The notes beneath the pieces were generated by a model, which did not search any database, was not told where the DNA came from, and saw only the letters and a program-made list of their open reading frames with translations. A DNA stretch of 14,924 nucleotides from Pseudomonadota bacterium (lineage in GTDB: Bacteria; Pseudomonadota; Alphaproteobacteria; Reyranellales; Reyranellaceae). A program made the translations under genes and the position numbers. Where the stretch lies: contig JAEZHS010000439.1 in NCBI GenBank assembly GCA_023436825.1, positions 1 to 14,924 of the forward strand, written 5' to 3'. This document shows, in pieces, positions 255 to 14,240 of the stretch (positions are counted from its first letter, which is position 1; the number at the start of each line of letters is the position of its first letter).

Positions 255-1544
255 GTGAGCGACAAGACCTACGGCTTCGAGACCCTGTCCGTGCATGCCG
301 GCGCCGCCCCCGATCCGGCGACGGGCGCACGGGCGCTGCCGATCTATCAGACCACGGCGTACGTCTTCGAGGATGCCGACCAGGCCGCCGCGCTGTTCAA
401 CCTGCAGACCGTGGGCTTCATCTACTCGCGCCTCACCAACCCGACCAACGCCGCCCTCGAGACCAGGCTCGCCACGCTGGAAGGCGGCCGTGGCTGCACC
501 GTCGCGTCGTCGGGCCATGCCGCTCAGGTGCTGGCGCTCTTCCCGCTGATGTCTCCCGGCGCAGAGATCGTCGCCTCCTCGCGCCTCTATGGCGGCTCGC
601 TGCAGCAGATGCGCAACACCTATCCGAAGTTCGGCTGGGCGGCGAAGGTCGTCGACGCCGACGACCCGGAGAATTTCCAGCACGCCGTCACGCCCAACAC
701 GAAAGCCTTCTTCATCGAAAGCCTGGCCAATCCCGGCGGCGTCATCAGCGACATCGAGGCCATCGCCCGCATCGCCGAGGCGGCAGGCGTGCCGCTCCTG
801 GTCGACAACACGCTGGCCACGCCGTGGCTGTGCAAGCCGATCGACTACGGCGCCACGCTGGTCGTGCATTCGACGACCAAGTTCCTGAGCGGCACCGGCA
901 CCTCGATGGGCGGCGCGGTCGTCGATTCGGGCAAGTTCGACTGGGCCAAGAGCGGCAAGTTCCCGAGCCTCGCCGGTCCCGAACCCGCCTATCACGGCCT
1001 CAACTTCTTCGAGAGCTTCGGCGACATGGCCTACACCTTCCACAGCCACGCCGTCGGCCTGCGCGACCTCGGTCCCAGCCAGGCGCCGTTCAACGCCTGG
1101 CTCACCATGCTGGGCATCGAGACCCTGGGTTTGCGCATGGAGCGCCACTGCGCCAACGCCCAGAAGGTCGCGGAATATCTCGCCAAGCACCCGGCGGTGG
1201 CCTGGGTCAACTACGCCGGCCTGCCGGACAACAAGTATCATCAGCTCGCCAGGAAATACCTGCCCAAGGGCGCAGGCTCGATCTTCACCTTCGGCGTCAA
1301 GGGCGGCTACGACGTCGGCATCAAGGTGGTCGACAGCGTCGAGCTGTTCTCCCACCTCGCCAATATCGGTGACGCCAAAAGCCTGATCATCCATCCCGCC
1401 TCGACCACCCATCGCCAGCTCTCCGACGAGCAGCGGATCGCCGCCGGCGCCGGTCCCGACGTGCTGCGCCTGTCGATAGGGATCGAAACGGTCGACGACA
1501 TCATCGCCGATCTGGCGCAAGCTCTCGAGAAAGCGACATCCTGA
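255..1544 (+). CDS. O-acetylhomoserine sulfhydrylase-type PLP enzyme
   Basis: This is a Cys/Met-metabolism PLP enzyme of the O-acetylhomoserine aminocarboxypropyltransferase (MetY-like) type, which forms homocysteine from O-acetylhomoserine and sulfide in the cytoplasm. Numbering from the GTG at 255 gives 429 residues, typical for the family. The PLP lysine sits in HSTTKFLSGTG (about Lys209), the PLP-pyridine aspartate in LVDNTLATP (about Asp184), and the phosphate-binding Tyr/Arg in IYSRLTNPT (about 57-59). I prefer GTG 255 over the ATG at 243 because GGAG (245-248) lies six bases before the GTG, whereas the ATG has no usable ribosome site; the protein then begins MSDKTYG, as relatives do. 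The stop overlaps the next start (TGATG, 1542-1546), so it heads an operon. MetY and other gamma-family members are hard to separate, so the exact substrate is inferred. Confidence 0.93.
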   Translation: MSDKTYGFETLSVHAGAAPDPATGARALPIYQTTAYVFEDADQAAALFNLQTVGFIYSRLTNPTNAALETRLATLEGGRGCTVASSGHAAQVLALFPLMSPGAEIVASSRLYGGSLQQMRNTYPKFGWAAKVVDADDPENFQHAVTPNTKAFFIESLANPGGVISDIEAIARIAEAAGVPLLVDNTLATPWLCKPIDYGATLVVHSTTKFLSGTGTSMGGAVVDSGKFDWAKSGKFPSLAGPEPAYHGLNFFESFGDMAYTFHSHAVGLRDLGPSQAPFNAWLTMLGIETLGLRMERHCANAQKVAEYLAKHPAVAWVNYAGLPDNKYHQLARKYLPKGAGSIFTFGVKGGYDVGIKVVDSVELFSHLANIGDAKSLIIHPASTTHRQLSDEQRIAAGAGPDVLRLSIGIETVDDIIADLAQALEKATS

Positions 1545-2878
1545 TGCTGAGCAAAGCCGACAACGAGTTCCTGACCCGAAGCGGTCCGGGCACGCCAATG
1601 GGCGACCTGCTGCGCCGCTTCTGGATGCCTGCCCTCCTGAGCGAAGAGCTGCCCGAGCGCGATGGGCCGCCGAAGAAAATCCGGATACTGGGCGAAGACC
1701 TGCTCGCCTTTCGGTCAACCGACGGTCGCGTCGGCATCGTCGAGCCGCACTGCCCGCATCGCGGCGCCAATCTCTACTTCGGCCGCAACGAGGAGTGTGG
1801 CATTCGCTGCGCCTTCCACGGCTGGAAGTTCGACGTCGACGGCAACTGCGTCGACCTGCCGACCTCGCCGCCGGAATCGACCTACAAGGACGCGATCAAG
1901 CTGCTCGCCTATCCCGCGCGCGAATGGGGCGACATGATCTGGGTCTACATGGGCCCACGCGAAAAGATGCCCGAGCTGCCGCAGATCGAGCTGGGCCTCG
2001 TGCCGGCGGGCAATCGCTACGTCAGCAAGAAATGGCAGGACTGCAACTGGGTGCAGAGCGTCGAGGGTGCGCTGGATACCTCGCACTTCTCCTTCCTGCA
2101 CATGGTGCTGAGCAAGAACGACGCCACCGCCCGCGCCGCGATGGCCAAGGCCGCGATCGCCGACCAGTCCAAGCCCGACGACCGTATCCGCTGGGTGCAG
2201 AACGATCCGCGGCCGAAGTTCCAGGTGATCGGCCACGACACCGGCCTGGTGATCGGCGGCGCGCGCAAGACCGACGGGCCCGACCTCTATTGGCGCATCT
2301 CGCAGTTCCTGATGCCCAACCACGCCTACACGCCGACCGCCTTCCCGGGCGAGATCTACTACGGCCAATGCTGGGTGCCGGTCGATGACGTCACCTGCTG
2401 GATCTATACATACAGCTGGCATCCGGACCGACCGTTCACGAACTCCGAGCGCGCCAAGTTCGACGGTGGCTTCAACGTCCATGCCGAGGTCGACGACGAC
2501 TACCTGCCGCTGCGCAACCTGCGCAACGAGTACCTGATCGACCGCAAGGCGCAGAAGCACGACACCTTCACCGGCATCGCCGGCGTGTCGGAGCAGGACG
2601 CGGCCATCCAGGACAGCCAGGGCCCGATCCAGGACCGCACCAGGGAGCATCTCGGCCCGACGGACATCGGCGTGGTCGAGTTCCGCAAGCTCCTCATGGG
2701 TTCGGCCCGCGCGCTGGCCAAGGGCGACGAGCCGCGCGCGGCACAGGCCGCCCGCCGCTACGCCGTGCGCTCGGGCGGCTGGGTCACCGATCCCGCCAAG
2801 GGCCTCGCCGAGGTGATGACCGAGCGCTTCGGCCACCGCCATGGCTATGTCGGCAATCAATATGGTCTGGGGGACTGA
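1544..2878 (+). CDS. Rieske aromatic ring-hydroxylating oxygenase, alpha subunit (intact copy)
   Basis: This is a 444-residue Rieske non-heme iron oxygenase of the phthalate 4,5-dioxygenase/LigXa-like group, which hydroxylates or O-demethylates an aromatic or related ring using electrons from a separate reductase. The N-terminal Rieske domain (about 25-135) has both [2Fe-2S] ligand pairs: Cys70-x-His72 in EPHCPHRG and Cys89-x2-His92 in RCAFHGWKF. The catalytic domain carries the iron-binding His181 and His186 in DTSHFSFLH, with Asp352 in GVSEQDAAIQD the likely third ligand. Its start ATG overlaps the stop of the PLP enzyme and its stop overlaps the start of a second oxygenase (TGATG both times), so translation is probably coupled. 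No reductase gene is visible in the window. The substrate cannot be told from the sequence. Confidence 0.93.
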   Translation: MLSKADNEFLTRSGPGTPMGDLLRRFWMPALLSEELPERDGPPKKIRILGEDLLAFRSTDGRVGIVEPHCPHRGANLYFGRNEECGIRCAFHGWKFDVDGNCVDLPTSPPESTYKDAIKLLAYPAREWGDMIWVYMGPREKMPELPQIELGLVPAGNRYVSKKWQDCNWVQSVEGALDTSHFSFLHMVLSKNDATARAAMAKAAIADQSKPDDRIRWVQNDPRPKFQVIGHDTGLVIGGARKTDGPDLYWRISQFLMPNHAYTPTAFPGEIYYGQCWVPVDDVTCWIYTYSWHPDRPFTNSERAKFDGGFNVHAEVDDDYLPLRNLRNEYLIDRKAQKHDTFTGIAGVSEQDAAIQDSQGPIQDRTREHLGPTDIGVVEFRKLLMGSARALAKGDEPRAAQAARRYAVRSGGWVTDPAKGLAEVMTERFGHRHGYVGNQYGLGD

Positions 2879-3384
2879 TGCTCAGTCGCGAGGACAACGA
2901 GTTCCTGACCCGAAGTGGTCCGGGTACGCCGATGGGCGACCTGCTACGCCGCTTCTGGATGCCAGCCCTCCTGAGCGAAGAGCTGCCCGAGCGCGACGGG
3001 CCACCCAAGAAAATGAGGATCCTGGGCGAGGATCTGCTCGCCTTTCGATCGACCGATGGCCGTGTCGGCATCGTCGAGCCGCACTGCCCGCATCGCGGCG
3101 CCAATCTCTACTTCGGCCGCAACGAGGAGTGTGGCATTCGCTGCGCCTTCCACGGCTGGAAGTTCGACGTCGACGGCAACTGCGTTGACCTGCCGACCTC
3201 GCCGCCCGAATCTTCGTACAAGGACGCGATCAAGCTGCTCGCCTATCCCACGCGCGAATGGGGCGACATGATCTGGGTCTACATGGGCCCGCGCGAAAAG
3301 ATGCCGGAACTGCCGCAGCTCGAGATGGGGCTGGTCCCCTCCTCGCAGCGCTACGTCAGCAAGAAATGGCAGGACTGCAACTGA
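2878..3384 (+). pseudogene. Second Rieske oxygenase, 5' half (interrupted gene)
   Basis: These are the first 168 codons of a tandem paralogue of the preceding oxygenase, ending at ...KKWQDCN. The Rieske domain is complete, with Cys70/His72 and Cys89/His92 in the same motifs as the intact copy. By eye about 158 of 168 residues match that copy. The stop codon TGA at 3382-3384 is made of TG from the gene plus A from foreign DNA, exactly where the intact copy reads TGG (Trp). The remaining 277 codons resume at 13340, so the gene was split by an insertion. A 168-residue Rieske domain could still be translated, since the start and the TGATG coupling are intact, but it has no catalytic iron site. 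Confidence 0.92.
3376..3383 (+). repeat. Target-site duplication, left copy
   Basis: TGCAACTG lies at the last base shared with the Rieske gene and recurs at 13334-13341, where the gene resumes. The intact paralogue has this sequence once. The duplication is 7 bp (GCAACTG) or 8 bp depending on how one T at the right end is assigned. Confidence 0.75.
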
Positions 3385-3422
3385 AAGCTCAGCTATGGGG
3401 AAATCAAAGGCTTGGCGAGAAA

Positions 3423-3462
3423 GGACGGCCCGAAGTTTCCAATTCCGTCCGTCCAGCCGTCC
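3423..3462. repeat. GGACGG/CCGTCC cluster at the left end of the insert
   Basis: One GGACGG (3423-3428) is followed by CCGTCC at 3445, 3449 (overlapping) and 3457. The first can pair with any of the others as a hairpin. The 12-bp step from 3445 to 3457 is also seen at the right end of the insert. The cluster lies in the roughly 150 bp upstream of the hydrolase gene. Its role as protein-binding sites or as a structural repeat is unproven. Confidence 0.4.
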
Positions 3463-3537
3463 GCCAGGTTGGCCTCTTGTTCTAGTCCGCCTGCGGGTTT
3501 GAGCCCTCCCCTTTTCTGATCTCAAAGGAGGCGCTAC

Positions 3538-4356
3538 ATGGAACGGTTGCCGGTCAACGGCGGGGAGCTCGAGTTCGAGACGAAGGGCAGCGGTGAACCC
3601 CTCGTCCTCATCCACGGCAGCATCACGGGCGAAGCGTTCGACTGCCTCCTGGACCAGCCGGCGCTCACGGACCGCTACCAGGTCACTCACTACCACCGTC
3701 GGGGTTTCCTCGGAAGCACTCGCCACACGGGGCCCTTCAGTATCGCCAAGCAGGCGCAGGATGCGCTGGCGGTTGTCCAACGCGTAGCCGGCGGGCGGGC
3801 GCACGTTGCCGGTCATTCCTACGGCGGCGCAACCGCGCTGCAGCTCGCGCTGGGCGCTCCGGATGCCGTGCACTCGCTTGCGCTCCTTGAGCCGCCGCTT
3901 GCTGTAGCCAGCGCTGAATCATTCGTTGCTCGCATGGGACCCTCCGGTCAGGCTTATGAATCCGGAGACGGTCCAGGCGCCGTCAGGGAATTCCTTAACG
4001 TTGTCCTCGGTGAGAACTACGACGTCGCTGTTGGCGCCAATCTGCCGGACGGTTGGTTCGACCGTGCCGTCGCGGATATCGACACCCTTTTCCAGGTCGA
4101 GCTGCCGGCGCTGAACGAATGGCATTTCACGGAGGACCTTGCCCGGCGAATCTCGCAGCCGGTGCTCTCGGTGGTCGGCGCGAACTCAGACCCGTTCTTC
4201 GTCGAAGGCCATGCGTTGTTGCAGGCATGGCTCCCGCAGGCAGAAGCATTCGTCCTTTCGGGCGCTACTCACGGCCTTCAATACATGAACCCCACGGGCA
4301 TGGCCGAAGCCCTCGCGGCATTCCTGGCGCGCCACCCGATGCCCTCTATTGTCTAA
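3538..4356 (+). CDS. Alpha/beta-fold hydrolase
   Basis: This 272-residue protein has the single-domain alpha/beta hydrolase layout. The oxyanion-hole segment is LVLIHGS (about 23-28), the nucleophile elbow is GHSYGG with Ser94, the acid is probably Asp218 in GANSDPF, and the base is His245 in SGATHGLQ, so the Ser-Asp-His triad is complete. It should be a cytoplasmic esterase, lactonase or C-C bond hydrolase; the substrate is not predictable. The start is firm: AAAGGAGG at 3524-3531 lies six bases before the ATG. It is the first gene inside the insertion and is followed directly by a creatininase scrap. It appears intact. Confidence 0.9.
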   Translation: MERLPVNGGELEFETKGSGEPLVLIHGSITGEAFDCLLDQPALTDRYQVTHYHRRGFLGSTRHTGPFSIAKQAQDALAVVQRVAGGRAHVAGHSYGGATALQLALGAPDAVHSLALLEPPLAVASAESFVARMGPSGQAYESGDGPGAVREFLNVVLGENYDVAVGANLPDGWFDRAVADIDTLFQVELPALNEWHFTEDLARRISQPVLSVVGANSDPFFVEGHALLQAWLPQAEAFVLSGATHGLQYMNPTGMAEALAAFLARHPMPSIV

Positions 4357-4461
4357 TCGAATTTTGAAACGGAGGTGAAGCAGGCGCTCGCCGACGGCAA
4401 GACAACGGCCCTCTTCTACACGGGCGGCACCGAGCAGCGTGGGCCGCAGAATGTCAAGTAA
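4357..4461 (+). pseudogene. Creatininase-family fragment
   Basis: The frame starting just after the hydrolase stop reads about 34 residues containing LFYTGGTEQRGPQNV and then stops at TAA 4459. GGTEQRGPQ resembles the N-terminal metal-binding signature of creatininase-family amidohydrolases (G-[ST]-x-E-[QL]-[HR]-G-P). A full family member is about 240-260 residues, so only an N-terminal scrap survives, and the following DNA is unrelated in this frame. There is no convincing start codon of its own. This is a call from one motif. Confidence 0.5.
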
Positions 4462-4562
4462 GAGAGGGTAAGACCCTCCTGGCTCAAGCCGCGACACCCG
4501 ATGGCATCGTTCGCATCAGCAAGGATCATCCAAACAATCGTTTCCTCGCCCTTAGTGCCGAG

Positions 4563-4790
4563 ATGATGGCGGTTCGGCTTGAAGGTGATAAGCAAGCCGA
4601 AGCGCTCTTGGCGCCTCTTGCCGCGTACGATTTTGACTGTGGTGCGAAAACTGCTGAGAGAAATCGCCAAGCGCTGATACGTTGTCGCGACTATTTTGTC
4701 TCGATGGACGGCACCATCATGGACATTCAAACGTCGCTACGGTTCTTTGGTGGACTCGAACAACGAGAAGCTCACGAGACTGATCTCTGA
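4563..4790 (+). CDS. Hypothetical protein, possible 5' part of a frameshifted gene
   Basis: This is a 75-residue ORF beginning MMAVRLEGDK with no family I recognise. The frame stays open upstream to before 4458 with sensible protein-like sequence (KTLLAQAATPDGIVRISKD), so the true start may have been lost when the creatininase scrap was joined here. Residues up to about SMDGTIMDIQTSL look structured. The end overlaps another ORF in a different frame (4696-5028), and reading across the two with one frameshift near 4740-4750 gives a plausible continuous protein. No good ribosome site precedes 4563. Base composition is visibly less GC-rich than in the metabolic operon. Confidence 0.35.
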   Translation: MMAVRLEGDKQAEALLAPLAAYDFDCGAKTAERNRQALIRCRDYFVSMDGTIMDIQTSLRFFGGLEQREAHETDL

Positions 4791-5028
4791 AGCGGCCAAG
4801 CGCTATCGCTTCTCGGACCCAAGCCTGATGCAAGGCGTAGAACGCGGTGCAGCCAAGGCGATGCGCGACGTAGAAACGCTATCGAAGCAGTACTTGACGT
4901 CTTTCGCCCAGTTGAACAAAGCCTGCATAGCCTGGTTCTCCTTTCTGATCGAAAACTCCGATAGCTACGAGGTGGCTGATAAGAGGATTTTGTGGACTGA
5001 TAGCGCGAAACACCGCGTTTCGAGCTAG
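4696..5028 (+). CDS. Hypothetical protein, possible 3' part of a frameshifted gene
   Basis: This is a 110-residue ORF from a TTG at 4696; a GTG at 4750 is an alternative that gives about 92 residues. From about residue 19 onward (VDSNNEKLTRLISEAAKRY) it is helical, charged and amphipathic, with no cysteine pairs or known motif; before that it reads like out-of-frame sequence. This suggests that the 95-bp overlap with the upstream ORF marks a frameshift in one original gene. The C-terminal part (EVADKRILWTDSAKHRVSS) ends normally. I do not recognise a family, and neither start has a clear ribosome site. Confidence 0.35.
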   Translation: MSRWTAPSWTFKRRYGSLVDSNNEKLTRLISEAAKRYRFSDPSLMQGVERGAAKAMRDVETLSKQYLTSFAQLNKACIAWFSFLIENSDSYEVADKRILWTDSAKHRVSS

Positions 5029-5076
5029 CCTGAGGCCGTGGAGGCGGTTGTCGAACGGCCTCGCGCAGCTCGCGAT

Positions 5077-5092
5077 GTAGGACGTCACCTAC
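5077..5092. promoter_or_regulatory. Possible operator dyad upstream of the XRE gene pair
   Basis: GTAGG (5077-5081) and CCTAC (5088-5092) form an inverted repeat around ACGTCA, about 50 bp before the TTG start of the gene at 5143. The two-gene unit ends in a helix-turn-helix protein, so an autoregulatory operator here is reasonable but speculative. Confidence 0.25.
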
Positions 5093-5142
5093 GCGCCTCG
5101 CGCCGCCTCCCATCAAATCATCGTTGTCGATAGGAGGACGAT

Positions 5143-5625
5143 TTGAAGAAGATCGACGGCCAGGAGGTCGTGAACGCGGCGACCGGGCTGCGGCTGACCG
5201 TGACATCGGCCGACATCGCCAAAGGCGCGCCCAAGAATCCCAACGCCTGCGCCCTAGCCCTCGCTGCGGTGCGCCAGATCAAAGGCGCCACCGCGGCCAG
5301 GGTTCATCTCAGCTGCATCTATGTGAACGTGCACCGTCAGTGGAAGCGCTGGCGCACGCCCGAATACGCCACGCGCGATATCGTCGCCTTCGATCGCGGC
5401 GGCCGCTTCGTGCCCGGCGAATACGATCTGCTGCCGATCCCGGTGTCGCAGCTGACGCGCCGCGTCGCCCAGATCAGGAACGGCGGCGTGCCTGTCTCAG
5501 CGGCCCGGCGCCGGCCCGCCAAGCCGCGGCCTCGCCACCACACCGCCGACGTGCGCGAGAGCGCTCACGCTGATCAGCCGCCCGGGCTCAGGGTGATCCG
5601 CGGCGGAAAGGCAGCAGCCGCATGA
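5143..5625 (+). CDS. Hypothetical protein, first gene of the XRE pair
   Basis: This 160-residue protein starts at TTG 5143, supported by AGGAGG at 5131-5136. Residues 1-110 are a compact alpha/beta-looking domain (VTSADIAKGAPKNPNACALA, then a Trp-rich QWKRWRTPEYATRD). Residues 120-160 are a basic, proline-rich tail (ARRRPAKPRPRHH) that may bind nucleic acid. Its last codons overlap the next gene by four bases (ATGA), so the two are co-translated. Small proteins of this style occur in alphaproteobacterial prophage-like regions, but I cannot name the family. Confidence 0.7.
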   Translation: MKKIDGQEVVNAATGLRLTVTSADIAKGAPKNPNACALALAAVRQIKGATAARVHLSCIYVNVHRQWKRWRTPEYATRDIVAFDRGGRFVPGEYDLLPIPVSQLTRRVAQIRNGGVPVSAARRRPAKPRPRHHTADVRESAHADQPPGLRVIRGGKAAAA

Positions 5626-6098
5626 GCACCCAAAAATCCCAAGCACCAAGCGATGCGGTGCGCCTGATCGAAAGCCAGATCAGCGAATTGCAGGAGCGGC
5701 TCAAGGTCGAGCACGAGCGCGATGCCTGCCGCGCGAGGTTGATTCGCTTCCTGCACGACCATCCCATACTAGGCCGCCGCGACGTGCTGATCGCCATGGA
5801 CATCGCCACGCCCAAGGCCAAGCGCGGCAAGCGGCCGGTGACATCACGGCGCGCGCACCTCGCCTCGCGCGTCGGCAAGGCCAAGGACAAAGGCAAGCTG
5901 AAACCCGCCGTGGGACCGATCGGCAAGGCGGTGCGGGCGGCGCGCGAGGCGGCCGGGCTCACGATATCCGAGCTGGCCGAGAAACTTCATGTCGCCCACG
6001 CCTCGATCGCCGGCTGGGAGCAGGGCAAATGGAAACCCAGCAAGGCCAAGGCGACAGCGCTCGGCAGGGCGCTGAACAAGCCCGCGAGGCAGTCATGA
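5622..6098 (+). CDS. XRE-family helix-turn-helix DNA-binding protein
   Basis: This 158-residue protein has a C-terminal XRE/Cro-type helix-turn-helix at about residues 105-155 (AVRAAREAAGLTISELAEKL, then VAHASIAGWEQGKWKPS). The N-terminal third (about 10-45) is a charged coiled-coil candidate rich in Glu/Gln/Arg, and the middle is a lysine/arginine-rich linker (PKAKRGKRPVTSRRAH). It should be a transcriptional regulator or nucleoid-associated DNA binder. The ATG overlaps the stop of the upstream gene by four bases. Unlike phage Cro proteins of about 70 residues it has a long N-terminal extension, perhaps for oligomerisation. Confidence 0.8.
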   Translation: MSTQKSQAPSDAVRLIESQISELQERLKVEHERDACRARLIRFLHDHPILGRRDVLIAMDIATPKAKRGKRPVTSRRAHLASRVGKAKDKGKLKPAVGPIGKAVRAAREAAGLTISELAEKLHVAHASIAGWEQGKWKPSKAKATALGRALNKPARQS

Positions 6099-6184
6099 GC
6101 GGCGCGGCGTGATGGACAATCTCTAGACCCGCGTGTCGGTGGTCGAAATCCTACATCGGCCACATCCATGAGAATGTGGCAGGA

Positions 6185-6208
6185 CGGAACGGCGTCGTCG
6201 CCGTTCCG
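6185..6208 (+). terminator. Hairpin, possible weak terminator after the XRE gene
   Basis: A perfect 10-bp stem, CGGAACGGCG with CGCCGTTCCG around a TCGT loop, lies about 90 bp past the XRE stop. Only three T follow it, so intrinsic termination would be weak. It sits between the XRE pair and the histidine kinase. Confidence 0.45.
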
Positions 6209-6351
6209 TTTATGCGCCAGAAGGACCCGTCCAATCTGGCGGCTGGGCGGAGCTATTGACTGGCATTCACAACTCCGTCGCTTGGGAAGTATGGCCGCAG
6301 CGAATATTGTTCTATCTTCGAAGTCCGCGGCCCGCTTGGGGGGTAGCAGCT

Positions 6352-7323
6352 ATGGACCTTGAAGATCTGTACCGTCTCCTGCGCACGAGCCACGTTCAGG
6401 CGCAGTGGATCGTCGACAACATCGACACGCCGGTGGCCGTGCTCGACGAGCACTTTCGCGTGCTTGATGTAAATGCCGCCTTCACGAACACTTTTCGTAG
6501 CTCGCGAGACGACTGCATCAGCCGGTCACTCTTTGACCTTGGAAACGGACAGTGGAACGTCCCGGAACTCAAGCGATTGCTGAATGATGTCATTCCAAAA
6601 GCGGTCGCGGTCGTGGGGTACGAGATTTCTCATGAATTCCCTCAGGTCGGTAAACGCACCATCTTGGTCAGTGCGCGTCGCATACGCGGACCTCAGAGCA
6701 CCACCATCATGGTGCAATTCGAGGATGTTACCGATCGCCGACGCGACGATGCCGCGCGCGATATGGTGCTGGCCGAGACGCGCCACCGCGCTCGCAACCT
6801 GATGGCAATGGCTCGCGCGCTCGCCACGCAGACGGAGACAGAAGGCCGCTCGGCAGCCGAATACCGCGATGCGTTCCTTCGCCGATTTGAAGCTTTGCTG
6901 GCCGCGCAGGACGTTTCGGATGCCGCCGCAGCGGATTTGGGCCTGCTCGTTAGCCGCATCCTTGGACCGTTCGACGGCCAACGTGTTCTTATCAGTGCTG
7001 GCGCGAGTGTCGTGCTCGATCGTCCTCAAATTTTGCCGATTGCCTTGATCCTCCACGAACTGATGACAAATGCCGCCAAGTACGGCGCCTTATCCAGGAA
7101 AAGTGGCATCGTGAAGCTGGCGTGGGAGGTCGACCCGGGCCCCGAAGGCAAGGTGCTCAAGCTGGTTTGGAGTGAAGAAGGAGGCCCGAAAGTTGACCAG
7201 CCTGCCCGGAAAGGCTTTGGAACCCGGCTAATTGAATTTAGTGCCAAGGAGCTTCGCGGAGCGGCGGACCTAAAATTCGAACCTGCTGGTCTGCACGCAA
7301 CGCTACGCTTGCCATCGGCGTAG
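6352..7323 (+). CDS. PAS-domain HWE-family sensor histidine kinase
   Basis: This is a 323-residue soluble kinase with no membrane segment. The N-terminal PAS-type sensor domain spans about 12-130 (IVDNIDTPVAVLDEHFRVLD, ending in VQFEDVTDRR). The phosphoacceptor is His145 in ETRHRARNLMAMARA, the HWE/HisKA_2 H-box. The ATP-binding domain has the N-box HELMTNAAKYGAL (Asn240 region) and the diagnostic W-x-E at Trp273/Glu275 in LVWSEEGGP, followed by GFGTRLIEF. I start at ATG 6352 because the upstream extension to the TTG at 6256 has no family character. A receiver-only response regulator lies 31 bp downstream and is the likely partner. The signal sensed is unknown. Confidence 0.88.
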   Translation: MDLEDLYRLLRTSHVQAQWIVDNIDTPVAVLDEHFRVLDVNAAFTNTFRSSRDDCISRSLFDLGNGQWNVPELKRLLNDVIPKAVAVVGYEISHEFPQVGKRTILVSARRIRGPQSTTIMVQFEDVTDRRRDDAARDMVLAETRHRARNLMAMARALATQTETEGRSAAEYRDAFLRRFEALLAAQDVSDAAAADLGLLVSRILGPFDGQRVLISAGASVVLDRPQILPIALILHELMTNAAKYGALSRKSGIVKLAWEVDPGPEGKVLKLVWSEEGGPKVDQPARKGFGTRLIEFSAKELRGAADLKFEPAGLHATLRLPSA

Positions 7324-7354
7324 AAGGATATCGAGTTGTTGTGCGCAGGTCCTA

Positions 7355-7720
7355 GTGAATCGGTTAGTCCGCATCCTCGTAGTGGAGGACGAGTTCCTGA
7401 TCGCCATGGAGCTTGCGGCGATACTCGAGTTGCACGGGTTCGAGGTGGTAGGCCCCGTCGGAAGTGTAGATGAGGCCCGCGAAATTCTACAGCGGGAGAG
7501 GCCGGAGGCGGTGGTTCTTGACTTGAACCTGCGCGGCGCCTCGGCAATACCCGTTGCGCAGCTACTGCGGGAACTAGAGCTGCCCTTTGTAATTGCGAGC
7601 GCGTATTCACGTGAGGATCTGCCGCCGGATGAAGCGCTGCGCGGTGCCGTGAACATTGGCAAGCCCACTCGTAGCGAGACGCTGATCAATGTGTTGCGCC
7701 GCATCACAAACTCCCGTTGA
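7355..7720 (+). CDS. Single-domain response regulator (receiver only)
   Basis: This 121-residue protein is one complete receiver domain with no output domain. The acidic pocket is Glu11/Asp12, the phosphoacceptor is Asp56 in VVLDLNLRG, the conserved Ser/Thr position is Ser82 in FVIASAYS, and the lysine is Lys103 in IGKPT. The K-P-x motif and the ending resemble the stand-alone receivers that accompany HWE kinases in alphaproteobacteria (the FATGUY-like group), although the usual T-G-Y is replaced by S-A-Y. It starts at GTG 7355 with only a weak ribosome site. It probably takes phosphate from the kinase upstream and may act as a phosphate shuttle or sink. Confidence 0.88.
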   Translation: MNRLVRILVVEDEFLIAMELAAILELHGFEVVGPVGSVDEAREILQRERPEAVVLDLNLRGASAIPVAQLLRELELPFVIASAYSREDLPPDEALRGAVNIGKPTRSETLINVLRRITNSR

Positions 7721-8249
7721 CGGGATTAGCCGAGGCCAATCCTTTGGCGTGTCAGGTGCACGTGGTTTTGTCCGTGCTCACATCGTCGCCGGTGTTGGAG
7801 AGGCGAGTTGCTACGAAAGCATCGAGGCCATGATCTGCGCCCGTGAATCCCCTTGCGGTGGCCGGCAACAGCGCTGAGCCCAGCTGAGCCTGCCCGAGTT
7901 TCCCGTGAAACAAGCGCCACCGTTTCACGGGGACCGCCGCCGCCTGAGGGTGCTCCTATCCCCTTGGGCGGCGGTTGGCCGCCCTCACCCGCGGGCCCCG
8001 ACGCCACCGCCCCTTCCCTGGCCCCGGCCGCCGCTAGGCCGGAAAACTTGGCCACGTCGCGATATTGGCCCGCAGACGGCACCGGCAGCTCTGCCGCCTG
8101 GCAGCCCCCCGCGTGGGCCCCAAAACCCGGTTCTTTAACCGCCCCCACGGAGTCCGAGTCTAAGACATGCATTTCTGCATCGCCATATTTTGACGCGGAC
8201 CCTGCTAATATCGCGTCTGACCAGGGGCCTGTAGCTAGGTGCGTCGCTT
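7721..8249. other. Non-coding interval with a parS-like palindrome
   Basis: This stretch of about 530 bp has no credible gene. ORFs on both strands are Pro/Ala/Gly-rich and look like chance products of a GC-rich region. It contains GTTTCCCGTGAAAC at 7898-7911 and a second partial copy at 7922. The last 30 bases before the AraC gene have only a weak ribosome site. Confidence 0.6.
7898..7935. promoter_or_regulatory. parS-like ParB-binding palindrome and degenerate second copy
   Basis: GTTTCCCGTGAAAC (7898-7911) differs at one base from the conserved ParB site GTTTCACGTGAAAC. A second copy at 7922-7935 keeps GTTTCACG but has three changes in its right half. CCGTGAAAC (7903-7911) and GTTTCACGG (7922-7930) also form a perfect 9-bp inverted repeat. 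In this frame the DNA would encode VSRET, as in the parS sites overlapping rsmG/mnmG in alphaproteobacteria, but no such gene surrounds it here. ParB binding is not shown. Confidence 0.45.
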
Positions 8250-9263
8250 ATGACCCCAACCACGTTGACGACAGTTTCCCTACCTGCAGCCCAGCAGTTC
8301 GAGGCGTGGTGCGCATGGTACTCGACGGTTTTCGCCATGGCGCAGCCGCGGGGGGCAGGCGAAGGCTTTTCTGCAACTGCCGAGGCTTGGACTTTCCAGG
8401 GGGTCGGACTGAGTCGCGCGGTCACCCCGCCACTTGCGATCAAGCGGAATCGCCCCCTCACCCGCCGCGATATGGTGGATCACTGGTGCATCACCATCGG
8501 CAAGAGCAGCCCAGCAACCCACGTCGTCGACAACAAAGCTCAGGTGGTGGCTGCAGGTGTGCCGTACATATTCTCTTTGCGCCAGGAGATGTACAGCGAA
8601 CGAACACGTTCTCGTGTCCAGTTATACTTGGCACGTGACCGCTTCAGGTCGCTTGAGCCGTTGCTCGATGGTGCATGCGGTAAGGCGTTCGACACCCGAA
8701 CAGGGCATCTGCTTGCAGAGTACGTAGGCTTGCTTGAGCGACACGCTTCGAAAGTTGCCGCTGTAAAGGGGGCCAACCTGGCTACCGCCATTGAAGCCAT
8801 GGTCAATGCTTGTCTCGCACCCTCCGCCAGCCGGTTCGCGCAAGCGCAAGTGCAGATGGACGTCATCCTCTTGGAAAGGGTGCGGCGTGCAGTTTTGGGG
8901 AACCTGAGGTCGCCTTCACTCGGGGTCGAAAAGATATGCAGAGAGGTCGCGATCTCGCGCACTCGTCTGTATCGTCTGCTCGACGGTGAAGGCGGTGTAG
9001 TGCACTACATCCAGAGCCAACGGCTTTCCGAAGCGTTTTCGATTCTCTCTGATCCCGCCAACGACATGCCGATAGGCGAAGTATCCGAGATGCTTTGCTT
9101 CTCTGATCCTTCAACTTTCAGCCGAGCCTTCCGCCGCCACTTCGGGCAAAGTCCCAAGGACGTAAAGGGGCTTGCCATTAAAGAGAAACACCACGCTATT
9201 TCGGCCACCAATGAATCAAGCCTGGACATCGGCGGCTTCGCCAAGTGCCTCCAAGGCCTCTGA
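8250..9263 (+). CDS. AraC-family transcriptional regulator
   Basis: This 337-residue regulator has an N-terminal ligand-binding or dimerisation domain (about 1-200) of the AraC_binding_2 type and a C-terminal double helix-turn-helix (about 220-310). The second helix-turn-helix shows the usual signature, with GEVSEMLCFSDPSTFSRAFR followed by RHFGQSPKDVK; the first lies around EKICREVAISRTRLYRLLDG. The length is typical of the family. It follows a long non-coding region and converges with the minus-strand phage genes, so no regulated operon is adjacent. The ATG at 8250 has a weak ribosome site. The effector is unknown. Confidence 0.9.
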   Translation: MTPTTLTTVSLPAAQQFEAWCAWYSTVFAMAQPRGAGEGFSATAEAWTFQGVGLSRAVTPPLAIKRNRPLTRRDMVDHWCITIGKSSPATHVVDNKAQVVAAGVPYIFSLRQEMYSERTRSRVQLYLARDRFRSLEPLLDGACGKAFDTRTGHLLAEYVGLLERHASKVAAVKGANLATAIEAMVNACLAPSASRFAQAQVQMDVILLERVRRAVLGNLRSPSLGVEKICREVAISRTRLYRLLDGEGGVVHYIQSQRLSEAFSILSDPANDMPIGEVSEMLCFSDPSTFSRAFRRHFGQSPKDVKGLAIKEKHHAISATNESSLDIGGFAKCLQGL

Positions 9264-9294
9264 CCAGCCAAGGTTGTGCCCAGTAGACGACCTC

Positions 9295-9735
9295 TCAAAA
9301 GCCCGAGCGCGATCCTTTGGCATCGATGGTGAACGTCTGCAGACGCGGCACCGCAAGGCCAAGATGTACCCATGTCCCGAACTCATGGATGAGCTGGTCG
9401 ATCGCTAGCGCCGCGACATGCGGCTCCAGCCAGCGGCAGATTTCAAGCGGTGTGCCGAAGGCCGGCGCGATGAAATCGACGGCCGCCCCGCTGAGATGGG
9501 CGCTGGCCTGCGCGCCGCCGACCGCCTGGTTGACGGCCGGCGCGCGATAGCCCGACGTGACATGGATCGGTGCGTTGTCGAGCAGGTGGCGGACGTGCTC
9601 CATCGTCTCGGCGAGCCGCTTGAGGTTGGCGAGCGCGGCGGCATCGGGCGTGTTGTCGAGGCCGCGGAGCGCTGCTTCCTCCGAGATCGTCAGCTCTTCG
9701 AGCGTGAAGTGCTTGGTGAGCTGGATCGAGGGCAT
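9295..9735 (-). CDS. M15-family peptidoglycan peptidase (phage endolysin-like)
   Basis: This 146-residue protein matches the peptidase M15A (D-Ala-D-Ala carboxypeptidase/endolysin) fold. It starts with MPSIQLTKHFTLEEL, typical of phage M15 lysins. Zinc ligands are visible as His80 and Asp87 in SAHLSGAAVDF and His124 in TWVHLGL, with SGYR (61-64) before them. I use the ATG at 9735 because it directly follows the TGA of the lipoprotein gene (one base between) and the family start fits; the longer frame to 9846 lies inside that gene. It should cut cell-wall peptides during lysis. It is the last gene of the minus-strand phage cluster, and no signal peptide is seen. Confidence 0.85.
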   Translation of the reverse strand: MPSIQLTKHFTLEELTISEEAALRGLDNTPDAAALANLKRLAETMEHVRHLLDNAPIHVTSGYRAPAVNQAVGGAQASAHLSGAAVDFIAPAFGTPLEICRWLEPHVAALAIDQLIHEFGTWVHLGLAVPRLQTFTIDAKGSRSGF

Positions 9736-9736
9736 G

Positions 9737-10051
9737 TCAGGGCCCAGCCACGAACCAGCCGTTGATCGGCACATTGTCGAGCATCGGCGGCGGGGACATC
9801 TCTTGCGGAAAGGCGCGCGGGCCGCGCGGCTGCGGCACCACCGCACAGATCCGCTCGGCGATGTCGGCGGCGTTGGTCCAGTTGGGATGGACGTTCAGGA
9901 GCGCCAGGATCGCCTTGATGGTGGGCACGTAGCTGCACTTGCGGATGACGGCCTGCTGGATCGAATCGACGAAGCTGAGATCGGGCATGTGCTCGCAGCT
10001 CGCGAGCAACATGACGCCCGCGAGCGGGCCGAAGAGACGACGTGTCATCAT
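9737..10051 (-). CDS. Small lipoprotein in the phage lysis cluster
   Basis: This 104-residue protein has a lipoprotein signal: positive MMTRR, a hydrophobic stretch, and a lipobox LLAS-Cys at about Cys19. The mature part is helical, with an AVIRKCSYVPTIKAILALL segment and two further cysteines (RKC, ERIC). Translation from ATG 10051 is supported by GAGGAGGGAG just upstream on the minus strand. Its place between a small membrane protein and an endolysin is where phages often keep a spanin-like lipoprotein, but it is longer than typical Rz1 and the assignment is inferred. Confidence 0.72.
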   Translation of the reverse strand: MMTRRLFGPLAGVMLLASCEHMPDLSFVDSIQQAVIRKCSYVPTIKAILALLNVHPNWTNAADIAERICAVVPQPRGPRAFPQEMSPPPMLDNVPINGWFVAGP

Positions 10052-10061
10052 GACTCCCTCC

Positions 10062-10277
10062 TCAATTGGGCTTGCTGGGAAAGCGCGAGAACGCCAGCGC
10101 CACCGCCATGACCTCGGCGAACAGGTCGCGCAGCGGCTCGTAGACGTTGCATTGGCTGACGTTGTTCAGGATGCAGCCGACCATCGTCGCGATGATCGCG
10201 ATGGCGTGCAGGCCGAGCACGCCGGCGACGAGCAGGAAGGCGCCGCGTGCCGTGTCGAAGGGTGGCCGCTCGCTCAC
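10062..10277 (-). CDS. Small membrane protein, holin candidate
   Basis: This 71-residue protein has one strong hydrophobic segment at about 12-37 (GAFLLVAGVLGLHAIAIIAT) and a short charged start, MSERPPFD. It begins at GTG 10277, which overlaps the TGA of the tail-collar gene (GTGA), and lies upstream of the lipoprotein and endolysin genes. Size and position suit a holin or holin-like protein, but sequence alone does not prove the function. Confidence 0.65.
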   Translation of the reverse strand: MSERPPFDTARGAFLLVAGVLGLHAIAIIATMVGCILNNVSQCNVYEPLRDLFAEVMAVALAFSRFPSKPN

Positions 10278-11250
10278 AGAGCGATCGCGTAGTTGGCGAT
10301 GATGGTCGGCGGCATGTTGGTGCGGATGTCGGTCGCGCCGCTGATCGCGCCACCGGCCGTCCAGCCGGTGATGCCGCCGCTGCCGTCGACGGTCGCGTTG
10401 CCGTTCACGTTGCCCCAGATGTCGACGTAGTGGCTGTGGTACTGCGCCGCCGCTGTGAAGCCGCCACCGCCCTGGCCCTGCTGGTTGGCGTCGGGCTGTC
10501 CGGTGTTGCCCCAGACGTGCACGCCCAGCCCGTGCACATAGGCGGTGCCGCCGATATAGGCCGAGCCGCTGACGGCCTGCGAGGGCGCCGAGCCGGTGAT
10601 CAGGAACTGCTGCATCTCCTGGCCGCCCCAGGAGCCGAGCGTGCCCGCGATCGATGCGCCGAGGCGGCCGGCACCGAGATCGGTGCCGGCGACGGTGCGG
10701 CCGCGCAGGTCGGGCAGGTTGAAGGTGGTCGAGCCGTTGCCCTGGCCGTAGGCCGTGCCGAAGGCGGCGAACAGACCGGCATACTCGGTACGGCTGACCG
10801 CTTGGCCGAGGCCCAGGATGGTGCCGACGCGCGCCGCAGCGCGGCCGGTCGGGATGTAGTCGCCGGTCGTGTCCTTCCAGTCGGTGAGGCGATAGGCGTC
10901 AGTGCCGGCGTCATAGGCGACGGCGTGAATCTCGTTGGGCCCGACCAGTCCGGGCGGCACCGGGCGCCAGGCGCCGACCGAGTAGTAGTGGATCGGCTTC
11001 GGACCCAGCGCGTTGACGTTGAGCGTGGCGAGCGCGCCATTGAGCACATGGAATTCGACGAGGTGCGTCATGCCATCGGCAAGTGCGCCGGGCTGGCGAA
11101 TGTAAGTAACGGTGTATGCCGTCGCCGTGTTCTGGGTCAGGATCGGCGCCGACCATTGCCGCCAGCCGGCGATGGTGAGGTAGGTCTCGTCAAGATCGGT
11201 GATGCCGAGATAGAGCTTGTTCAGCGCCTCGAACGTACTGGGATCGAGAG
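10274..11250 (-). pseudogene. Phage tail-collar fibre protein, N-terminus missing
   Basis: The C-terminal domain contains the tail-collar signature: AVSRTEYAGLFAAFGTAYGQ, then GSTTFNLPDLRGR and VAGTDLG. A Gly/Ala/Asn-rich tip follows and ends MPPTIIANYAIAL, as phage receptor-binding fibres do. An internal ATG at 11071 gives 265 residues, but protein-like sequence (FSLDPSTFEALNKLYLGITD) continues in frame upstream to about 11250. There it meets a fragment of an unrelated enzyme on the other strand. The gene has therefore lost its 5' end and promoter. Downstream it overlaps the small membrane protein (GTGA). An annotation starting at 11071 would miss about 60 residues of genuine sequence. Confidence 0.75.
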
Positions 11251-11514
11251 AAAATTGTCTCGATGTTAGGCGAGCATAAGCCCTACACGCGAATCGCGGA
11301 CTCTGGACGAAAAGTCACTTTACACTTCTGCCCGACATGCGGCGTCACGGTGTTCTGGTACCCTGAGTTGCTTCCCGACAGGGTTGGTGTCGCCGTCGGC
11401 TGTTTCGATGATCTCGATTTTCCACGGCCAGTCAGGGCAGCCTTCAGCCGCAGCAAATTTGCTTGGGTCAATTTCGCGGGTGACGTAGCGGAGTCACGGC
11501 AGCCATCGAGCTGA
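11251..11514 (+). pseudogene. GFA-family (Mss4-like fold) enzyme, C-terminal fragment
   Basis: About 85 residues match the C-terminal half of glutathione-dependent formaldehyde-activating (GFA) family proteins: GEHKPYTRIADSGRKVTLHF, then CPTCGVTVFW with the second zinc Cys pair, then GVAVGCFDDLDFPRP and FAWVNF. The N-terminal half with the first zinc site (CxC and CHC motifs) is absent. A full member is about 115-140 residues. The ATG at 11263 is internal; family-like sequence begins a few codons before it, at the junction with the broken phage tail gene. The fragment is probably non-functional. Confidence 0.78.
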
Positions 11515-11903
11515 TCTATGGTGAGTCTGCTTCGGGTCAGTAGGCGACATTCAGAGGTCGTCGCCGCATGTCTGCTTTACCCTCGAGAGCGGACATGCCT
11601 TGGCATCCAAGTGGTTGTCAGCTTTGGGCCAATAGCCGACATCGCCACAGTCTCGATCCCGGTCAGCACCGCCACAGCGAAACCGGCCATGACGCCCCGG
11701 GCGAGGTGATGTCGGTCAGCAGATCCTTTTCCGCTGACCGGCGGGGACTGCACTGCCGGTGCACGGCGCCCTCCCATCGGGAAGTGCCCGTTTGCGGTCC
11801 GCGGTGCCTGATCGTACCATCGCCCCTCGGGCGTTGGGGGACGCTGTGTCTCCCTTGCGTACCGAACCACCCGGATGCCGGGACAAAATGAGGGGAGATA
11901 CAC
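11515..11903. other. Gene-free stretch holding the first 99-bp repeat
   Basis: Between the GFA fragment and the OmpA-type lipoprotein I see no credible gene. The interval holds repeat copy 1 (11534-11632), about 270 bp of unassigned DNA, and the lipoprotein ribosome site. The promoter for that gene should lie here but I cannot place it. Confidence 0.6.
11534..11632. repeat. 99-bp direct repeat, copy 1
   Basis: It runs from GGGTCAGTAGGCGACATT to GCTTTGGGCCAA and recurs at 12630-12728 in the same orientation with three mismatches. It contains a hairpin at 11567-11597 with arms CATGTCTGCTTT and AGAGCGGACATG. It resembles dispersed intergenic repeats of rhizobia, but copies outside this window cannot be checked here. 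Confidence 0.85.
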
Positions 11904-12521
11904 ATGCTGAAGAAGTTCCTGATCGCGTCGGCGGTCGGACTGCTGCTGGCGGCTTGCGAACAGCAGCCGCAGATGGCCAGCCCGCCGCCCACGCAGGTGA
12001 GACAGTTGTTCGTCGTGTACTTCAACACCGGTCAATCGGACATATTGCCTGATGGGCAGGCGACGATTGCCCAGGCCTCCGCAACCTTCAAGCAGGGCGG
12101 CACCAACGTGCTCGTGAAAGGCCATGCCGACCGCGTCGGCGATCAGGGGATGAACCTGCGGCTTTCCATGGCGCGCACGGCGGCCGTGAAGGCCGCGCTG
12201 ATGCGCGCCGGCGTGCCGGAGTCTGCGATCCGGTCGGGCAGCCTGGGTGAGGAAAGCCTGCCGGTCCCCACCGCCGACCAGGTCCCCGACCGGCTTAACC
12301 GCAGTGTTCACATCACGGTCATTGGGCGGCCGGTCATGAGCGACAAGGACTATTGCGCCGCGCTTGCCAGGAAGTGGCGTTCGTATTCCCGGACGGGCGC
12401 ACAGGGTCCGGCGCCGCAGGCGATCGCCCAGTGCGATTCCGGAAATTACGACGCGGGCATCACGGTGCTGGAGCAGATACTGACGGACGACAGGGTTGTG
12501 TTGCCGTCGCGCTACTTGTAG
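11904..12521 (+). CDS. OmpA/Pal-type outer-membrane lipoprotein
   Basis: This 205-residue lipoprotein has the signal MLKKFLIASAVGLLLAAC, with the lipidated Cys18 followed by Glu19, so outer-membrane sorting is likely. An OmpA C-terminal domain (about 34-142) follows: VYFNTGQSDILPDG, GHADRVGDQGMNLRLSMART and RLNRSVHITV. Asp76 and Arg91 occupy the positions that bind diaminopimelate in peptidoglycan. The last 60 residues (about 145-205) are an extra domain with two cysteines (YCAALARKW, AIAQCDSGNYD). GGGGAGA lies seven bases before the ATG. It is monocistronic, ends in a strong terminator and is bracketed by two 99-bp repeats. It probably tethers the outer membrane to the wall. Confidence 0.9.
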   Translation: MLKKFLIASAVGLLLAACEQQPQMASPPPTQVRQLFVVYFNTGQSDILPDGQATIAQASATFKQGGTNVLVKGHADRVGDQGMNLRLSMARTAAVKAALMRAGVPESAIRSGSLGEESLPVPTADQVPDRLNRSVHITVIGRPVMSDKDYCAALARKWRSYSRTGAQGPAPQAIAQCDSGNYDAGITVLEQILTDDRVVLPSRYL

Positions 12522-12548
12522 CCCGATCCGGCTCGAGTAGACTGTAGA

Positions 12549-12581
12549 AGGCGGTCCTCCTGCGAGGGCCGCCTTTTTTTT
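12549..12581 (+). terminator. Rho-independent terminator of the OmpA-type lipoprotein gene
   Basis: An 11-bp stem pairs AGGCGGTCCTC with GAGGGCCGCCT (one T-G wobble) around a four-base loop and is followed by eight T. It lies 28 bp after the stop codon. Confidence 0.92.
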
Positions 12582-12629
12582 GCGCTTCGATGGAGACCGA
12601 ACTCCTCAGGGCGTCGCAAATGACGCAAT

Positions 12630-12728
12630 GGGTCAGTAGGCGACATTCAGAGGTCGTCGCCGCATGTCTGCTTTACCCTCGAAAGCGGACATGCCTTGGC
12701 ATCCAAGTGATTGTCGGCTTTGGGCCAA
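12630..12728. repeat. 99-bp direct repeat, copy 2
   Basis: This is the second copy of the element at 11534-11632, with three mismatches. Its hairpin (12663-12693) is the better formed: CATGTCTGCTTT pairs with GAAAGCGGACATG around a short loop with one wobble. It lies just after the terminator of the lipoprotein gene. Confidence 0.85.
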
Positions 12729-12768
12729 AAACGGTCAGCCGCGACAGGCAGCGCTCGGATCGATACCC

Positions 12769-13005
12769 TCAGTCACCTCCTCGCCTGGCTGAGCACCACT
12801 CAAAACCCTCAAGCTCGGTGTCGGGCAGGTCGGTAGACACGTAGACGACGGTCACCCTCCAGCGGTTCGGGCCAAAGCGGCCTTGGGTGCTGATCGGAGC
12901 AGCAAATTCGCTCAGGCGTTTCAGTCCGGTCTGGTGATCCCACCAGTCGGCGGCGGCCTTCGCAGCCTCTGCTCGGTTGGAGCCAGCGAACGTCTTTATC
13001 TCCAT
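12769..13005 (-). CDS. Small hypothetical protein
   Basis: This 78-residue ORF reads MEIKTFAGSNRAEAAKAAAD, then WWDHQTGLKRLSEF and RWRVTVVYV. The pattern is beta strand, helix with a WW pair, loop, then a final strand, which suggests a compact single domain like the small conserved hypotheticals common in rhizobia. I do not know a function. The ribosome site is weak. The coding case rests on protein-like composition and the conserved-looking WW and RWRVTVVY segments. Confidence 0.6.
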   Translation of the reverse strand: MEIKTFAGSNRAEAAKAAADWWDHQTGLKRLSEFAAPISTQGRFGPNRWRVTVVYVSTDLPDTELEGFEWCSARRGGD

Positions 13006-13318
13006 GTCTAGTCGAACGCGCCCTACTCATCGCCGTTCCGCGCTGCAGCCGGGAACCCTAGGCCCCGTCTCAAGCCTATTCGGTGGCGCGGAGGGTCCAC
13101 TGGCATCAAGGTCTTGGGGAATGCCCGTGGCGGTGCCGCTGAATTTAGTTCCGCTTTCGGTGGCACAGCGGACATGGCCGGATTTGCTGCTGGCTCGACC
13201 CGGTCGCGAATGACCCAGCTCGGACTTCCCTGAGACCGCCCAGTCCGTCCTAGAATCCGTCCATAATCCGTCCTTGCGCAGCATCACCTCGCTAAGGGCC
13301 TGACTCGTTGGAGGAATT
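13006..13318. other. Gene-free right end of the insert
   Basis: About 310 bp with no credible ORF. It contains three CCGTCC copies at 13245, 13257 and 13268 and ends with a GGAGGA motif at 13310-13315 just before the resumed Rieske frame. No tRNA or integrase site was recognised. Confidence 0.6.
13245..13273. repeat. CCGTCC triplet at the right end of the insert
   Basis: CCGTCC occurs at 13245, 13257 and 13268 (steps of 12 and 11 bp), in the same orientation as the cluster at the left end, which also shows a 12-bp step. The arrangement could mark protein-binding sites near the element ends, but this is unproven. Confidence 0.4.
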
Positions 13319-14173
13319 TTGGACGCTGAGGTTTGCAACTGGGTGCAGAGCCTCGAAGGCGGCATCGACACCGCGCACTTCTCCTTCCTGCACGCCGTGC
13401 TGACCAAGGACGAGCAGGAGGCGCTTGCGATCTACAGCCGCTCGGCGGCACTCGGCGATCAGTCCAAGCCCGACGACCGCGTGCGGTGGATCCGCAATGA
13501 TCCGCGACCGAAGTTCAGCATCATCGGCCACGATGCCGGCCTGGTGATCGGCGGCGCGCGCAAGACCGACGGGCCCGAGCTCTACTGGCGCATCGCCCAG
13601 TTCCTGATGCCCAACCACGCCTTCGCGCCAGCGGCGATGCCGGGCGAGGTCTATTACGGCCAGGCCTGGGTGCCGGTGAGCGACACCAGCTGCTGGATCT
13701 ACACCTACAGCTGGCGGCCAGACCGCGCCTTCACGAACTCGGAGCGCGCACAGTTCGACGGCGGCTTCGGCGTACACTCCCATGTCGACGACGACTACAT
13801 GCCGCTGCGCAACCTGAGGAACGAGTACCTGATCGATCGCGCGGCCCAAAAGCATACGAGCTTCACCGGCATCACCGGTGTCAGCGAACAGGACTCGGCG
13901 ATCCAGGACAGTCAGGGCCCGATCCAGGACCGCACCAGGGAGCATCTCGGCCCGACCGACCTCGGCATCATCGAGTTCCGCAAGCTCGTCATGGGTGCGG
14001 CGCGCGCGCTCGCCCGAGGCAGCGAGCCGAAATCGGCACGGGCGGCGAAGAAATACGCCGTGCGCTCTGGCGCCTGGGTCGCCGATCCGAACAAGGATCT
14101 CGTTGCAGTCATGACCGAGCGTTTCGGTCATCGGCACGGCTATGTCGGAAACGAGTATGGGCTGGGAGAATAG
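13319..14173 (+). pseudogene. Second Rieske oxygenase, 3' half (interrupted gene)
   Basis: From Cys-Asn at 13334 onward this is the catalytic domain missing from the fragment at 2878-3384. It carries the iron ligands His/His in DTAHFSFLH and the Asp in GVSEQDSAIQD, and ends like the intact copy (GYVGNEYGLGE). Roughly three quarters of its 277 residues match that copy. The frame extends five codons into the insert to a TTG at 13319, with GGAGGA at 13310-13315, so a stand-alone product MDAEVCNWVQ... could be made. Without the Rieske cluster it could not receive electrons in the usual way. It was once continuous with the 5' half in the operon before the GST gene. Confidence 0.9.
13334..13341 (+). 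repeat. Target-site duplication, right copy
   Basis: This is the second TGCAACTG, matching 3376-3383, at the point where the Rieske gene resumes. The first T could belong to the insert terminus, which would make the duplication 7 bp. Confidence 0.75.
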
Positions 14174-14240
14174 TTAGACCAACTGCGCTTGCTGCTTTAT
14201 CGTTTCCGCCGTCAAAAATCGGGACTCAGGGGACTGCACA

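Follow-up and report, generated by a model that had tools for sequence, protein, structure and literature searches.

An alphaproteobacterium related to Reyranella has two Rieske oxygenase genes in tandem. What split the second one, and how did the intervening DNA get there? The window, the whole 14,924-nucleotide (nt) stretch of contig JAEZHS010000439.1 (assembly GCA_023436825.1), carries an operon in the order pyridoxal phosphate (PLP) enzyme, Rieske, Rieske, glutathione S-transferase (GST). An original prediction, made from these letters alone, held that the second Rieske gene (copy 2) is split by about 9.95 kb of DNA with a 7-8 bp target-site duplication. When the uninterrupted operon was sought in relatives, it was found at two loci, L001 and L002, and both bore the prediction out. 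Because these two relatives carry the gene whole, we conclude that the insertion is real and a single event.

L001, from the metagenome-assembled genome (MAG) RBC080, and L002, from MAG Dino_bin47, are the nearest loci found, with 92% identity to the copy 1 protein; the genus-level set around G001, the genome of L001, includes G004, home of the Reyranella soli locus L009. Window positions 197-3383 aligned with L002 8652-11853 at 90.0% identity, and 13334-14848 with L002 11846-13359 at 91.0%. The two L002 matches overlap by exactly 8 bases, TGCAACTG, and L001, a second empty site, shares the same octamer at 11833-11840. A short identical repeat (7-8 bp) is thus present at both ends of the insert and single in the empty site. 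As predicted, it stands at both edges and once in the intact copy 1 (at 2042); a further copy lies within the insert at 8372. Aligning the terminal arms of the insert shortens the repeat to 7 bases, GCAACTG, and places the insert at 3384-13334. Among 161 first-half matches, drawn from 153 loci with some genomes present twice, 158 continue past the site as DCNW, 3 reach a locus end and cannot be read, and none is interrupted; the two halves were not seen as separate genes elsewhere, the case named beforehand as refuting. A blastn comparison (1e-5) with the 78 loci that a search with copy 1 had brought up gave no match lying wholly within 3360-13360.

Joined at the octamer, the halves of copy 2 give 1338 nt, or 445 amino acids (aa) plus a stop, against 444 aa in copy 1, exactly the lengths foreseen; the uninterrupted copy 2 of L002 is likewise 1338 nt long. 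The stop of the first half, TGA at 3382-3384, consists of TG from the target and A, the first base of the insert, again as claimed, and neither half contains any other stop or frameshift. Copy 2 is lost as a result, copy 1 and the GST gene remain intact, and the two halves should not be annotated as two genes. The event looks young, because both halves are still open without sign of relaxed constraint. The ratio of nonsynonymous to synonymous substitution (dN/dS) against L002 was 0.068 for split copy 2 (dS 0.40) and 0.124 for intact copy 1 (dS 0.36), and against L001 it was 0.091 and 0.096, respectively; such pairwise values mostly cover the time before the insertion and show only that no long decay came after it.

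We then turn to the ends. With GCAACTG as the repeat, the left end begins AAAGCTCAGC and the reversed right end AAACCTCAGC, identical at 9 of 10 positions, with no run of inverted matches past base 10. Joined as in a circle, the ends read GCTGAGGTTT-GCAACTG-AAAGCTCAGC, that is, 10-base inverted arms around 7 bases. Inside each end lies a cluster of three CCGTCC hexamers in the same orientation (starts at 3445, 3449 and 3457, and at 13245, 13257 and 13268). Outside the clusters the hexamer occurs on the same strand only at 6227 and 10357; its reverse form, GGACGG, occurs at 3423 and six other places. Tyrosine recombinase sites are described in two papers as inverted repeats around an identical core of 6-8 bp, with further integrase sites in attP (PMC4111918, PMC8371274). 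The end structure suits such an attachment (att) site at least as well as a short-repeat transposon. There is no tRNA attachment site, since no tRNA was found in the window, nor was there any Rfam match at gathering score. A tRNA-like target was also considered and rejected, because the loop and the 7-base word are not in register.

No transposase, integrase or resolvase was detected in six-frame Pfam (E 0.1) and PHROGs (E 0.01) scans of the insert, in which stops were written as X, as the original prediction had said of transposases. The families found were regulators, hydrolase, kinase, OmpA, GFA, tail collar and endolysin, along with some of unknown function. None of the 20 direct repeat families and 25 inverted pairs shown joins the two ends of the insert, and the two end copies of an insertion sequence expected of a composite transposon were not seen among them. 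The phage-family matches comprise only the tail collar, the endolysin, the phrog_19191 protein and regulators, short of a complete prophage. The insert is not assigned to any element family, since the search for the enzyme that would define one came back empty. Of the "one transposition event" first proposed, the single insertion stands on the two empty sites; for a transposase as its agent, the six frames gave no candidate.

The original prediction also called for a search for the insert elsewhere, which succeeded in part: two pieces of about 1 kb recur in G001 and G004, the left end was not found, and the right end was matched only through a dispersed repeat. Specifically, the left end (3376-3525) had no match in 75 family genomes or 385 class genomes, in a search that scored at most 2 candidates per class genome and had no positive control, and none in plasmids and phages. 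The right end was searched in the 75 family genomes and in plasmids, where only its dispersed repeat matched. In viral contigs, the exact left end, the right-end hexamer cluster and the circle junction each gave 0 matches. In general, genome searches with long queries evaluated no more than a few candidates in each genome and may have overlooked weak matches. On Reyranella islands, no publication was relevant by title or start of abstract; the insertion itself was not otherwise searched in the literature.

The best reading is that the element is a cryptic genomic island of ordinary kind that lacks an integrase. In its full form, which we put a little short of an even chance, a ready-made mosaic island of 9.95 kb would have entered copy 2 in one young event through a tyrosine-type recombinase, the integrase having since been lost or having acted in trans. 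The island would arrive as a circle, and the recombinase would cross over within GCAACTG while binding the 10-bp inverted arms and probably also the CCGTCC clusters inside each end. The enzyme would have been encoded on an earlier, larger form of the element and lost, or else supplied by another element; the larger form may have been a phage, with the tail-lysis block and the phrog_19191-HTH (helix-turn-helix) pair as its remnants. In favor of this reading are the two empty sites with their 8-base overlap, the arms and hexamer clusters, which resemble the published layout of tyrosine recombinase sites, the lack of any transposase or integrase in the six-frame scans, and the phage genes.

Several observations weigh against this proposal. 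The six-frame scans found no integrase in the insert, and the inverted arms, matching at 9 of 10 positions, are as much the terminal repeats of a transposon as an att junction. The statistics on the arms (0.00015 of 200000 random site pairs reached 9 matches, best of three offsets) and on the clusters (20 of 20000 draws of two random 150-bp stretches gave a hexamer that occurs three times in each) were computed after the ends had been inspected. The GCAACTG used does fit the element arms best among the five listed in L002 (9 of 20, the others 3-5), which favors the proposal, but the fit is weak, and 3.9% of all L002 positions reach it. Half-site patterns searched with one mismatch in the 75 genomes gave 0 right, 3 left and 2 control matches, and no second copy of the insert ends was found in the genomes, plasmids and viral contigs searched. 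Viral contig L122 does speak for such an origin, as it combines a tyrosine integrase (phrog_1, E 2e-24) with endolysin-like DNA and a protein 68% identical to that of 5143-5625, but 12759 of its 18397 bases, the part examined, hold neither GCAACTG nor a CCGTCC cluster before the integrase (0 each), and relatives of that integrase in 8 of the 75 family genomes are only 32-41% identical. The 3 left half-site matches, all read in sequence and two of them with their ORFs (open reading frames) listed, were dismissed as chance by their context, one of them lying by eye inside a resolvase-type gene. Likewise, the L122 integrase was rejected as the donor enzyme, as no att sequence matched; L122 points to what sort of parent to look for and is not itself that parent.

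The ends turned up nowhere else in the data searched, which leaves room for rival mechanisms. A repeat of this length with inverted ends is what many transposons have, and an ordinary coding sequence suits them as a target. The insert could be a non-autonomous or decayed transposon with 10-bp inverted ends and a 7-8 bp duplication, its DDE transposase acting in trans or deleted. We regard this as rather unlikely: the target duplication and the terminal inverted repeats (10 bp, 9 matches) are there, but the inverted match stops after 10 bases, the six-frame scans list no transposase, no repeat among those shown joins the ends, and the left end was absent from the family and class genomes at the search depth given above. 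Less probable still is that a smaller element with these ends came first and pieces accreted later, so that 9.95 kb would be the sum of several events. Three features argue for it, namely the two pieces that recur at 99% identity in different surroundings in two genomes, the three dispersed repeats in the right-hand 1.8 kb, and the abutting gene fragments between about 11233 and 11263, where a GFA fragment without its start lies against the truncated tail collar gene. The undecayed Rieske halves leave little time for later events, a weak objection, as the divergence may mostly predate the insertion.

Capture of foreign DNA at a staggered double-strand break, with the 8 bases as filled-in overhangs, would account for the lack of a mobility gene and for the mosaic cargo, but it predicts neither the inverted arms nor CCGTCC clusters at both ends, and we consider it improbable. 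An assembly join of unrelated contigs is the least credible, a very slim chance, as it would take two joins, each at one and the same octamer in a single gene, and the sequence next to the junctions matches L002 at 93% over 308 bases and 92% over 300.

The integrase-less island favored here can be compared with known systems. Like tyrosine-integrase islands, integrative mobilizable elements and decayed prophages, the insert has the same core-length direct repeat at both ends, inverted arms at the predicted circle junction, repeats inside each end that may be of arm type, and phage-type cargo, and it disrupts one gene; unlike them, it has no integrase gene, and its target, which matches the arms weakly, is part of a coding gene. 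With non-autonomous transposons and with mobile cassettes that are moved in trans, the insert shares a 7-8 bp target duplication, short inverted ends and cargo without a transposase; unlike them, it is a single known copy, and no transposase-bearing relative with the same ends was found. Salmonella genomic island 1 can use a secondary attachment site, its usual site being the 3' end of thdF (PMC2297512); the insert, by comparison, lacks a known primary site and a recombinase. The window and its empty sites show the state before and after what seems to be a young insertion, in a soil genus that has been little studied, and the defined core and arms allow the agent to be sought.

Table 1. Positions of the features of the window, with strand and the basis of each assignment.
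Feature	Position	Strand	Basis
PLP enzyme (Cys/Met metabolism), first operon gene	243..1544	+	Pfam PF01053, E 1.2e-127
Rieske oxygenase, intact tandem copy 1, 444 aa	1544..2878	+	Pfam Rieske and LigXa_C
Rieske copy 2, first half, 168 aa, C-terminal WQDCN	2878..3384	+	ORF (open reading frame) reading, Pfam
Left copy of 8-bp direct repeat TGCAACTG	3376..3383	.	8-base overlap with empty sites L001, L002
Insert, 9950 bp	3384..13333 (3384-13334 with 7-bp repeat)	.	Empty-site alignments
Left terminal arm AAAGCTCAGC	3384..3393	+	9/10 inverted match to right arm
Cluster of three CCGTCC, arm-site-like	3445..3462	+	Pattern search
Alpha/beta hydrolase piece (gene 3538-4356)	3521..4457	+	Pfam; 99.1% identity to G001 piece
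31-codon stub, weakly creatininase-like start	4366..4461	+	Pfam PF02633, E 0.057, below its cut-off
Phage-type protein of unknown function, phrog_19191	5143..5625	+	PHROGs; 68%/52% relatives in viral contigs L122, L123
XRE-type helix-turn-helix regulator	5622..6098	+	Pfam HTH_3
PAS and HWE histidine kinase	6352..7323	+	Pfam, scanned from 6355
Response regulator receiver	7355..7720	+	Domain scan
AraC-type regulator	8250..9263	+	Domain scan
Phage tail-lysis block: tail collar (without 5' end), 71-aa ORF, 104-aa ORF, M15 endolysin	9295..11233	-	Domain and PHROGs scans
GFA-family gene fragment, N-terminus missing	11263..11514	+	PF04828 positions 54-113 of 115
Dispersed repeat, copy one	11534..11641	+	94% vs 12630-12737
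OmpA-family piece (gene 11904-12521)	11617..12635	+	99.0% identity to G004 piece
Dispersed repeat, copy two	12630..12737	+	Repeat search
Dispersed 90-bp repeat	13139..13228	+	6/75 family genomes; 8 plasmid records
Second cluster of three CCGTCC, arm-site-like	13245..13273	+	Pattern search
Right terminal arm GCTGAGGTTT	13325..13334	+	Inverted match to left arm
Right copy of direct repeat	13334..13341	.	Octamer match, empty-site alignment
Rieske copy 2, second half	13334..14173	+	Joined reading, Pfam
Glutathione S-transferase, last operon gene	14241..14849	+	Pfam

Judged by its sequence, the cargo is a mosaic: regulators, a phage tail-lysis block that is truncated, and two pieces, each about 1 kb long, with 99% identical counterparts in other contexts in two relatives (Table 1). 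The hydrolase piece is 99.1% identical over 937 bp to a G001 stretch in other surroundings, the operons being only 89% identical. In the window and in G001 (L080) it ends in the same stub, cut at nearly the same place, as if hydrolase and stub had moved as one already truncated unit. The OmpA piece is 99.0% identical over 1019 bp to a G004 stretch, again in other surroundings, and its right edge recurs in G053 (L155). OmpA-family relatives of 84-97% identity occur in other genomes without that edge. The gene being widespread, the case for recent movement lies solely in the edges held in common and in the 99% stretch. Pieces 99% identical across Reyranella-type genomes whose Rieske genes differ by 10-15% help to judge gene flow. 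Four G053 contigs (L154-L157) end in OmpA-family copies 93-97% identical to that of the window, as multi-copy sequence does, and the G004 piece (in L079) is flanked, on inspection by eye, by inverted repeats that are imperfect and roughly 75 bp long.

The tail-lysis block (9323-11231) shares 77% DNA identity with viral contig L118, whose tail gene begins about 210 bp further upstream; those 210 or so bases are missing from the tail gene of the window. The 104-aa ORF of the block has a lipoprotein-like start, judged by eye. The direct repeat copies at 11534-11641 and 12630-12737 flank the OmpA piece, and their frames resemble the MSALPxKAD words often predicted in alphaproteobacterial intergenic repeats. 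The 90-bp repeat recurs at 79-87% identity in 6 of the 75 family genomes and, whole or in part, at 83-90% in 8 plasmid records of Ensifer, Rhizobium and Bradyrhizobium.

When about 10 kb of insert was searched against the genus, with 4 candidates scored per genome, 30 of 65 genomes matched at 1e-10 with 65-99% identity, mostly in the OmpA, tail or AraC regions. The stretch 4440-8250 matched in only 1 of 75 genomes (67-77%). In plasmids, 3500-8250 matched 2 records over 43-72 bases of the kinase or response regulator, and the OmpA stretch had no match. The hydrolase was not confirmed in any viral contig, and its piece had no match at 1e-30 in the 385 class genomes.

One protein hints at a possible second case. 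P0001, a 168-aa protein from a 3275-base contig of a Reyranella MAG, matches the first half at 96% identity and stops at exactly its last residue; among 240 proteins listed, no other ends in CN, and its name lacks "partial". It is a hint only, because the protein would look no different if the following codon had mutated to a stop or the contig had run out there: the codon after the site is TGG in the uninterrupted L001 and L002 copies, one change from a stop, and another short form, P0035 (170 aa, ending in WV), stops nearby, also without a "partial" label. That TGCAACTG in the Reyranella Rieske gene might serve repeatedly as an attachment site, in several species, for a family of integrase-less islands that are mobilized in trans and collect single-gene pieces, is an improbable conjecture. 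Second-half proteins starting VQS or MQS (P0126, P0141, P0171 and P0175 among them) were rejected as interrupted copies, because other truncated matches start at internal start codons.

Two side observations concern the tandem Rieske genes themselves. In all 24 tandem pairs that a script picked from L001-L058, the first half of the gene, with the Rieske domain, is more alike between the two copies than the second; the comparison covered 1544-3383 in the window and 10001-11838 in L001. The L001 copies show no difference at gene positions 51-450, and their second halves are 78% identical. The pattern suggests gene conversion that has acted repeatedly and only within the Rieske domain. Copy 2 of L001, open at the insertion site, has its 3' end swapped for about 545 bp (L001 12640-13186) bearing an antibiotic-biosynthesis-monooxygenase-like gene, a separate event in the same gene.

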